Shown here piece after piece: positions 4,648-33,576 of a DNA stretch of 40,711 bases. The DNA is from Chloroflexota bacterium (GTDB taxonomy: Bacteria > Chloroflexota > Dehalococcoidia > Lucifugimonadales > Lucifugimonadaceae), in assembly GCA_022564545.1 (NCBI GenBank), contig JADFLG010000011.1, positions 1-40,711 on the forward strand, written 5' to 3'. Numbering within the stretch: the first letter of the stretch is position 1; each line of letters begins with the position of its first letter. The notes below the pieces were generated by a model. It was not told where the DNA came from. It did no database searches and saw nothing but the letters and a program-made list of their open reading frames with translations. Both the position numbers and the translations under genes were made by a program.

Positions 4648-6297
4648 ATGCCCGAGTTCAAGCCCAATACTCTCTACTACGGCGACAACCTGCAGGTGCT
4701 GCGCGATTTCCCGTCGGAATGTGTCGACCTGATCTACCTCGATCCGCCCTTCAACTCAAACCGCAACTACAACGTCCTGTTCAAAGAATCAGCAGGTGTC
4801 GAAGCTGAGGCGCAGATTCAGGCGTTCGAAGACACCTGGCACTGGGGCATTGAGGGAACGACGACATGGGACACCTACAACCAGATCGTCCAAAAACAGG
4901 ATGAAGTTGGGCGAATGCTGCAGGCGTTTGTTCAGGCACTTGGGCACAACGATGTAACAGCGTACCTGACAATGATGGCCCCTCGGCTGATCGAATTGCG
5001 ACGAGTGCTGAAGCCCACCGGATCGATATACCTGCACTGCGACCCTACCGCTTCGCACTATTTGAAGGTGGTTATGGACTCTGTGTTTGGAGCGACTAAC
5101 AGTCGCACTGACATTGTTTGGCGCCGAACAAATGCAAAAGGACTGGCATTTAAAGGGTTCCCCCGTGATCACGACACACTGCTGTACTACACCAAAGAAG
5201 CCAAGTTCACTTGGAATCGCCCTTTCGTCGCGTATGACCCCGCATACGTGGAGAAGTTTTATCGGTTCGTGGAAGAAGGGACAGGGCGTCGATATCGCCT
5301 CAGCGACCTCACAAATCCGAACCGAGACCGACCAAATTTGACCTACGAGTGGAAGGGACATGTGCGGGTTTGGCGTTGGACAAAACAACGAATGGAAGAA
5401 GCGGAGCAGCATGGCATCATTCAGTACTCATCAACTGGTCTAGCGGCTCAGAAAAGATACTTGGACGAAATGCAAGGCCAGCCTGTCGATTCCATTTGGG
5501 ATGATATTGAACCAGTCCAGGCACACTCGAAAGAGAGGCTTGGTTACGCTACCCAGAAACCAGAAGCACTATTGGAGCGAGTAATCAGCGCATCTTCAAA
5601 TGAAGGCGACGTGATACTCGACCCGTTCTGCGGGTGCGGGACCGCCGTCGTCGCAGCCCATCGCCTGGGACGTAAATGGATCGGCATCGATATTACTTAT
5701 CTCGCCGTGGACCTGATGCAGAATCGTCTGAAAACCACATTCCCAGGTGACTTCAAAAAAGGCGTTCAAATCGATGGCGAGCCCGCCGATGAAGCAGCCG
5801 CGCTTGCCCTGGCCGAGAAAGACAAGTACCAGTTCCAGTTCTGGTCGGTCGCCAAACTCGGCGGTACCTCCCGCGGTGGTCAAAACAAAAAAGGTGCAGA
5901 TCAGGGTGTAGACGGCGTGATCGGCTTCCCGGAAGTAGACCCGGAGAAATCAGGCAAGGCGGCACACGACTTCAAGCAGGTGATCATTTCAGTCAAGGGT
6001 GGAAATACCGGACCGTCTCACGTGCGTGATTTGATCGGAACAGTCAAGAACGAAAGCGCGGCCATCGGCGTGCTCGTCACCATCAAAGAACCGACCCGGG
6101 GAATGATCGACGCTGCAGCATCTGCAGGTGTGTACCAATCGAATTTCACCAAAAAGTCATACCCAAAGATTCAGATAATTACCGCGGGCGATATTGTTCA
6201 CGGAAAAATGGTAGAAATGCCGCCTATCGAAAGCCTGAGCCAGTATAAGGCTGCTCCGAAAGCCAAACGCGGAACCCAAAGTTCGTGGGACATCTAA
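4648..6297 (+). CDS. DNA methyltransferase fused to Mrr-like nuclease domain
   Basis: 549 residues from the ATG at 4648, with GAGG 9 nt upstream; the TTG at 4618 is less likely. Residues 1-365 are a beta-type amino-methyltransferase (N6-adenine or N4-cytosine). Catalytic motif IV DPPF is at 32-35 and the SAM motif I, LDPFCGCGT, at 324-332, the order of the beta class, with a target-recognition region between. Residues about 390-549 look like an Mrr-type restriction domain: GVDGVIGF at 420-427 supplies the aspartate and ISVKGG at 447-452 the lysine. One polypeptide may therefore modify and cut. It follows the HsdR_N gene but is separated from it by a terminator and a repeat. Possible promoter: TATGAT at 4613-4618, without a good -35 box. 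Confidence 0.85.
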   Translation: MPEFKPNTLYYGDNLQVLRDFPSECVDLIYLDPPFNSNRNYNVLFKESAGVEAEAQIQAFEDTWHWGIEGTTTWDTYNQIVQKQDEVGRMLQAFVQALGHNDVTAYLTMMAPRLIELRRVLKPTGSIYLHCDPTASHYLKVVMDSVFGATNSRTDIVWRRTNAKGLAFKGFPRDHDTLLYYTKEAKFTWNRPFVAYDPAYVEKFYRFVEEGTGRRYRLSDLTNPNRDRPNLTYEWKGHVRVWRWTKQRMEEAEQHGIIQYSSTGLAAQKRYLDEMQGQPVDSIWDDIEPVQAHSKERLGYATQKPEALLERVISASSNEGDVILDPFCGCGTAVVAAHRLGRKWIGIDITYLAVDLMQNRLKTTFPGDFKKGVQIDGEPADEAAALALAEKDKYQFQFWSVAKLGGTSRGGQNKKGADQGVDGVIGFPEVDPEKSGKAAHDFKQVIISVKGGNTGPSHVRDLIGTVKNESAAIGVLVTIKEPTRGMIDAAASAGVYQSNFTKKSYPKIQIITAGDIVHGKMVEMPPIESLSQYKAAPKAKRGTQSSWDI

Positions 6298-32774: not shown

Positions 32775-32892
32775 CTAGCGCAATGTCTCCAGATGGGTTG
32801 CGATTAGCAATCGGCCATGATGCCAGACTCTGCTGCGATTTGTGCAAAATTCAGATAGATCTTGGCTACGCTATTGATTTCGGAGGTGCGCT

Positions 32893-33576
32893 GTGGCCGA
32901 CGAACAGACCCTTGGCAGGGTGTATCACGCGATAATGTCGGGGTTCGTCGAGAACGGACGGGCACCGCACTATACCGAATTGGCCGTCGCGTTCGGAGTA
33001 ACAGCCGAGGCGGCGTTTGAACTTCAACGAGGCATGCTCGACGAATTTGGGGGGCCTCATTGGGCTGACCCTGGAAGTGGTCTGATCGCGTGTTTTGATC
33101 CCTTTTCCAACATCCCCACGCAGTACCGTATTTCGATCGACGGTGAACAAAAATGGTACGGCGAATGAGGTCTCGCTTCGCTGGCCGTGAGCTGGCTATT
33201 TCCAGGACAGGAGATACACATCGACGCAACTTGCCTCGATTGTCTTGAGCCGATATTCGTCCGCATGCGAGACGGCGAGGTTCTAGAAGCTGACCCGACG
33301 ACGATTGTTGGGCATCAGAACATTTCCTCTTCACAGGAAGGTGTCACATGGCCCGATAGGTGAAGCCAGATGAATCTCTTCCGGTCGGAAGAACACGCAA
33401 AAGCTTGGTCGAAGTACTCTCCAGACTCGACCGAGCGGACGATGCCAGTGGCGAAATACGCAAGGCATTTCGGTACCGATTACCAGCGTCTGAGGCTCGA
33501 TCCGGACTACTTCGTCAATCGAATGGAATTACAGAAAAAAAGAGACGCCCAGCGCGCAGCCATCGAGAACGATTAG
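32893..33576 (+). CDS. MerB-like protein with two in-frame TGA codons, putative double selenoprotein
   Basis: A single frame from GTG 32893 (GGAGG 6 nt upstream) to TAG 33574-33576 gives 227 residues if TGA at 33166 (codon 92) and 33361 (codon 157) are read through. Before codon 92: a winged-helix-like N-domain (APHYTELAVAFGVTAEAAFE), then CFDPFSNIPTQYRISIDG and WYGE. Organomercurial-lyase relatives have WYGNCAWD there, so TGA replaces the catalytic Cys (C96 in plasmid MerB). After codon 157 comes SQMNLFRSEEHAKAW, where relatives have Cys-S-T-I-N-F-F-R-S-E-E-H; this TGA replaces C159. The two are 65 codons apart, against 63 in MerB. No other stop interrupts 227 codons. A CLDC pair (about 111-114) lies between. 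The MerB Asp99 position is Ala. Reading as selenocysteine is inferred; the alternative is a pseudogene. Confidence 0.8.
33169..33198 (+). promoter_or_regulatory. SECIS-like hairpin after first TGA
   Basis: Stem TGGCC (33182-33186) with GGCTA (33194-33198), including one G-U pair, and loop GTGAGCT (33187-33193). The loop begins 18 nt after the TGA at 33166-33168, and its first base is G, fitting the bacterial rule of a G among the first loop bases 16-37 nt after the UGA. The stem is short, so this alone is weak. Confidence 0.4.
33364..33392 (+). promoter_or_regulatory. SECIS-like hairpin after second TGA
   Basis: A perfect 6-bp stem, TCTTCC (33377-33382) with GGAAGA (33387-33392), closes a GGTC loop (33383-33386). 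The loop starts 19 nt after the TGA at 33361-33363. In E. coli fdhF the GGUCU loop starts 18 nt after its UGA, so both distance and loop sequence agree well. Confidence 0.6.

Follow-up and report, generated by a model that had tools for sequence, protein, structure and literature searches.

The window, a 40,711-nucleotide contig of a Chloroflexota bacterium, very probably encodes a MerB-fold protein whose two catalytic positions are selenocysteine (Sec), namely Sec92 and Sec157 (Table 1). Comparison of related sequences further indicates that each UGA of this gene is followed by its own conserved SECIS hairpin and that both hairpins are real SECIS elements. The initial annotation had already read both TGA codons as Sec, and this reading is strengthened by their match to the catalytic Cys residues of MerB, the Sec/Cys exchange found at the first of them, the conserved hairpins and a complete host Sec pathway. 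A GGAGG or similar motif lies at the same place upstream of the start codon in most relatives, and an Rfam search of the window gave no match.

Table 1. Coordinates of the features described (positions in the window, except for the last row)
Feature	Position	Strand	Remarks
Shine-Dalgarno GGAGG	32882..32886	+	6 nt upstream of GTG; from sequence
MerB-family gene, 227 residues	32893..33576	+	Starts with GTG; codons 92 and 157 are TGA, read as Sec; frame opens with TGA as U
First TGA (Sec92)	33166..33168	+	Place of MerB Cys96; aligned to MerB2 and MerB; Cys in 22 relatives
Codon 95 (Ala)	33175..33177	+	Place of MerB catalytic acid Asp99
SECIS 1	33180..33196	+	GCTGGC 33180-33185; C33186-GT-G33189; A33190 unpaired; GCTGGC 33191-33196
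Cys114-x-x-Cys117 motif	33232..33243	+	Cys114 at place of MerB Cys117
Second TGA (Sec157)	33361..33363	+	Place of MerB Cys159; TGA in 86/86 Sec-containing genes; also Sec in SaoL
SECIS 2	33377..33392	+	TCTTCC 33377-33382; GGTC 33383-33386; GGAAGA 33387-33392
TAG stop of MerB-like gene	33574-33576	+	Coding part 32893-33573
SAR202/Chloroflexi Sec-MerB neighbourhood	L110 3776-8615	–	Also L072, L099, L115, L116

The predicted protein matches the Pfam MerB family PF03243 (E 8e-21, 74.8 bits versus a gathering value of 27) and scores far under the cut-offs of the NCBIfam MerB models. MerB2 from the PDB aligns to its residues 71-198, and the family profile also retrieves MerB, placing the two TGA positions on Cys96 and Cys159, and Cys114 on Cys117. 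The AlphaFold2 model (pLDDT 89.3, pTM 0.86) matches MerB2 (5c17, Z 17.3) and MerB (3f2f, Z 16.4), the next unrelated fold reaching a Z of 8.5. Canonical MerB signatures comprise Cys96, Cys117, Cys159 and Asp99, the latter being Ser in MerB2-type proteins (PMC8261052); the window protein retains the equivalent of Cys117, carries Sec in place of Cys96 and Cys159, and has Ala95 in place of Asp99. Fold, Pfam family and positions 96, 117 and 159 are shared with R831b MerB and B. megaterium MerB2, whereas both catalytic sites are Cys in these enzymes, position 99 is Glu in the window family (Ala in the window protein), the added CxxC of this family is absent from MerB, and the window gene has no mer operon. 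Among the 86 Sec-containing genes compared, residue 95 is Glu in 73, Asp in 12 and Ala only in the window, while Cys114 is present in 84/86 and Cys117 in 81/86.

Relatives were collected by a class-wide search of 393 genomes, 23 of which held them, the majority carrying one or two TGAs in frame, and by a scan of named genomes, where 247 were found and 80 kept. The 93 distinct genes counted, which are the best-scoring relatives and not a random sample, carry at sites 1 and 2 Sec/Sec in 64 cases, Cys/Sec in 22 and Cys/Cys in 7, with no Sec/Cys combination. Over its length, the window protein shares 54% identity with relatives that have the same two TGAs. Record titles assign the relatives to Chloroflexota, Deltaproteobacteria, Desulfobacterota groups, Actinomycetota, Rokubacteria, Nitrospirae, Gammaproteobacteria, Poribacteria and others, many being metagenome-assembled genomes whose single taxonomic placements are not firm; none was found on viral contigs. 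At site 1, TGA and TGC/TGT codons replace each other among relatives. In the tree the main clade of 76 rows groups together (99*), and its supported branches show no fewer than 9 switches between Sec and Cys at site 1.

The hairpin proposed after the second TGA, TCTTCC-GGTC-GGAAGA with its loop starting 19 nt downstream, is present in the sequence exactly as described. Nearly all 64 Sec/Sec genes use the codons CTC TTC CGG TCG GAA at this place, which yield UCUUCC-GGUC-GGAAGA; 97.7% of cells are paired, with too little variation for much covariation, and the hairpin occurs in 0/7 of the Cys/Cys relatives. Regarding the first hairpin, the letters given by the initial annotation (TGGCC 33182-33186, GTGAGCT 33187-33193 and GGCTA 33194-33198) and the 18-nt distance stand, but the pairing does not, as the relatives keep another register, in which C33186 pairs with G33189 around GT 33187-33188. 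The pairing with a GTGAGCT loop was set aside because three observations fit this other register: the constraint on codons, the covariation of 33186 with 33189, and the constrained C in codon 102. Neither is the first site the weaker one, as had been supposed, since in the right register it displays the stronger covariation.

In the relatives, SECIS 1 follows the consensus G-CUGGC-N1-GU-N4-x-GCUGG-C, with GU invariant and with N1 and N4 free with respect to the protein, because each is a third codon position, one of Ala and the other of Val. These two bases pair in 57/64 Sec/Sec genes (G-C 25, C-G 20, A-U 10 and G-U 2), and the covariation sought in homologues is thus found in a loop-closing pair that changes synonymously among C-G, G-C and A-U. 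Shuffling gave a mean of 28 and a maximum of 41 for this pairing, 0/20000 shuffles reaching 57, and over the whole element 98.3% of cells are paired, with 27 double-change cells versus 6.9 in shuffles (0/500), although the relatedness of the genes weakens both tests. When independent supported pairs on the tree are considered, the loop covariation agrees in 5/5 (p 0.06). The strongest control is a natural one: SECIS 1 is complete in 56/64 Sec genes versus 4/12 members of the clade whose site 1 is Cys (Fisher p 2e-4), 11/12 of the latter retaining the site-2 hairpin. Replacement of Sec by Cys at site 1 thus often costs the SECIS 1 hairpin. In L100 and L131, the outer pair of SECIS 1 is swapped from G-C to C-G alongside a Leu-to-Val change at residue 102.

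Codon usage among the 64 Sec/Sec genes is strongly constrained only shortly 3' of the two TGAs. Deviations amount to 2.0, 1.1 and 0.57 bits at residues 96, 97 and 102, and to 1.7, 0.56, 1.7, 1.9 and 1.0 bits at residues 162-166; residue 98, which carries a covarying loop base, shows 0.29 bits, and all other conserved residues stay at or below 0.35 bits. A conserved apical loop containing G, 16-37 nt after the UGA, is found at both codons. Folding energies are ordinary, since 38% (site 1) and 11% (site 2) of synonymous recodings fold as well; the consensus stems themselves arise in 2.1% and 3.1%, respectively, of recodings with local codon usage. Being just mildly unusual in these respects, the window sequence by itself is weak evidence for the hairpins; their case rests on the relatives, and the comparison across 64 of them is decisive.

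The host genome contains tRNA-Sec, SelA, SelB and SelD, that is, a complete Sec pathway, and selA is present in 16/19 genomes of the class with a Sec-type gene, the other three being drafts 72-92% complete. Host SelD (L148, contig C77) also has a single in-frame TGA and is a selenoprotein in its own right; no clear SECIS was identified for it. Reassignment of TGA to Trp or Cys in the host, with no SECIS involved, would also leave the frame open, but it has a negligible probability: the hisA gene of the window is terminated by TGA, which is therefore an ordinary stop elsewhere, the two positions match Cys and not Trp, the Sec machinery is present, and the hairpins are kept at synonymous sites. 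It is also very improbable that the protein contains a single Sec, like SaoL, with only the second TGA read as Sec and the first being a real stop or read otherwise. Sec at site 2 only is indeed the state of SaoL and of 22 relatives, and site 2 is always Sec in the clade; nonetheless, TGA occupies the place of the catalytic Cys of site 1 in 64 genes, followed by a hairpin with covarying bases that decays in genes with Cys there, and a stop at site 1 would preclude making Sec157.

That the two TGAs are stops breaking the frame of a pseudogene is just as hard to sustain, even though the catalytic acid is missing from the window copy and the copy found in another genome of the genus (G366, L054; contig of 147483 bases, about 5001-5685) is broken by an in-frame TAG at codon 126 and by indels after about codon 138. 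The same two TGAs occur in 63 other genes from many phyla, the window copy is free of TAA, TAG and frameshifts, and amino-acid change on both sides of each TGA shows strong constraint relative to the same-genus copy (dN 0.13-0.20, dS about 1.5-2 or saturated), both hairpins being kept in the window. The same-genus copy itself conserves both TGAs and the second hairpin, and also has Ala at residue 95; no copy was seen in four other genomes of the genus. Given Ala in place of the proton donor in the window and the damage to the same-genus copy, it is uncertain whether the enzyme is active in this genus: the gene in the window may be altered or impaired in function, and the genus may have changed the enzyme or be losing it.

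For the family as a two-Sec protein, SelB and Sec-tRNA-Sec would recode each UGA, directed by its own short hairpin, a step strongly supported by sequence. By analogy with MerB, the product would then cleave a carbon-metal bond, most likely in methylmercury or another organomercurial. Once the metal is bound by the two selenolates, the acidic residue 95, which is Glu in most relatives, would protonate the leaving carbon, and the metal would be handed on, possibly aided by the conserved CxxC. The chances that organomercury is the substrate appear slightly better than even, a mercury role that rests on homology because the host genome yielded no MerA above the cut-off and no mer operon surrounds the window gene. 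Alternatively, though with a lower probability that still deserves weight, a protein with the same two Sec residues may act on a different organometal, in line with proposals for SAO genes, or bind metal or selenium without lyase action; this alternative concerns function only. It would account for the lack of MerA, for the absence of recognised mer genes near the relatives, for the molybdate-type ABC transporter adjoining the gene in one SAR202 group, and for Ala95 in the window copy and the extra CxxC. On the contrary, the presence of an acidic residue (Glu or Asp) at the proton-donor position of 85/86 genes suggests that lyase chemistry is kept in the family. No neighbouring gene is common to most relatives. 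In the SAR202/Chloroflexi group mentioned, the Sec-MerB gene lies between the transporter, of ModA-ModB-ModC type, and an HTH regulator with a molybdopterin-protein-like C-terminal domain.

Among known systems, the closest described protein is SaoL (NCBIfam NF040728), a MerB-like organometallic lyase listed as a selenoprotein with one Sec in a review that tabulates the families of Haft and colleagues (PMC13188914). The window protein scores 37.6 bits against this model, whose cut-off is 140. Both are MerB-like, with Sec at site 2 in a UxxMN(F/L)F context, but in SaoL site 1 is Cys and the Sec is immediately preceded by another Cys (SCUN), while the window protein has Sec at site 1 and RUS at site 2. 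The SaoL of the Desulfatitalea genome that also holds relative L122 (L159) reads MCAID at site 1 and places Sec in SCUNVMNFF; its UGA is followed by a hairpin with a U-GU-A loop and a single unpaired C, arranged like SECIS 1 of the window. Two Sec residues and a SECIS 1 of its own set the window gene apart, and its neighbourhood showed no Sao genes. SaoL thus already provides an example of Sec at site 2; the present sequences would add the combination of both sites, with a separate SECIS for site 1. No description of a double-Sec MerB was found in the literature examined or in NCBIfam models, with a mention in Haft and Gwadz 2023 or Haft and Tolstoy 2025 being possible; the main texts of GOS 2008 and Peng 2016 do not name MerB.

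In E. coli fdhF, the GU loop dinucleotide lies 20-21 nt after the UGA, compared with 19-20 nt at site 1 and 21-22 nt at site 2 of the window gene. The fdhF element has a GGUC loop at nearly the same distance as that of site 2, but the stem here lacks its bulged U, and the loop of site 1 is N-GU-N plus an unpaired base.

Mercury is bound far more tightly by selenium than by sulfur, and an enzyme with Sec at both metal-binding positions of MerB hence bears directly on biological mercury-selenium chemistry. It is possible, if somewhat short of an even chance, that these genes represent a widespread di-selenol organomercurial lyase family of selenium-using, largely uncultured bacteria, encoded outside the usual mer operon. 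If so, it would have been overlooked because annotation halts at the first TGA, and with it a route of methylmercury breakdown. Counts of mercury demethylation genes would miss Sec-MerB, including the genes of SAR202 and other Dehalococcoidia, because gene callers stop at the first TGA and a MerB survey screens for Cys96 and Cys159 (PMC8261052). Two SECIS elements in one frame, together with natural Sec/Cys exchange at one of the sites, would also make a good test set for the requirements of SelB, suggested here to be a GU that never changes, closed by a pair that can be swapped.

One genome of the same phylum (G514) contains three separate Sec/Sec copies (L135, L145 and L147). A second, distant MerB-like clade (L025, L028, L030, L031, L033, L137, L140, L141, L143 and L144) combines Cys at site 1 with Sec at site 2, and most of its genes have the TCTTCC-GGTC-GGAAGA hairpin.
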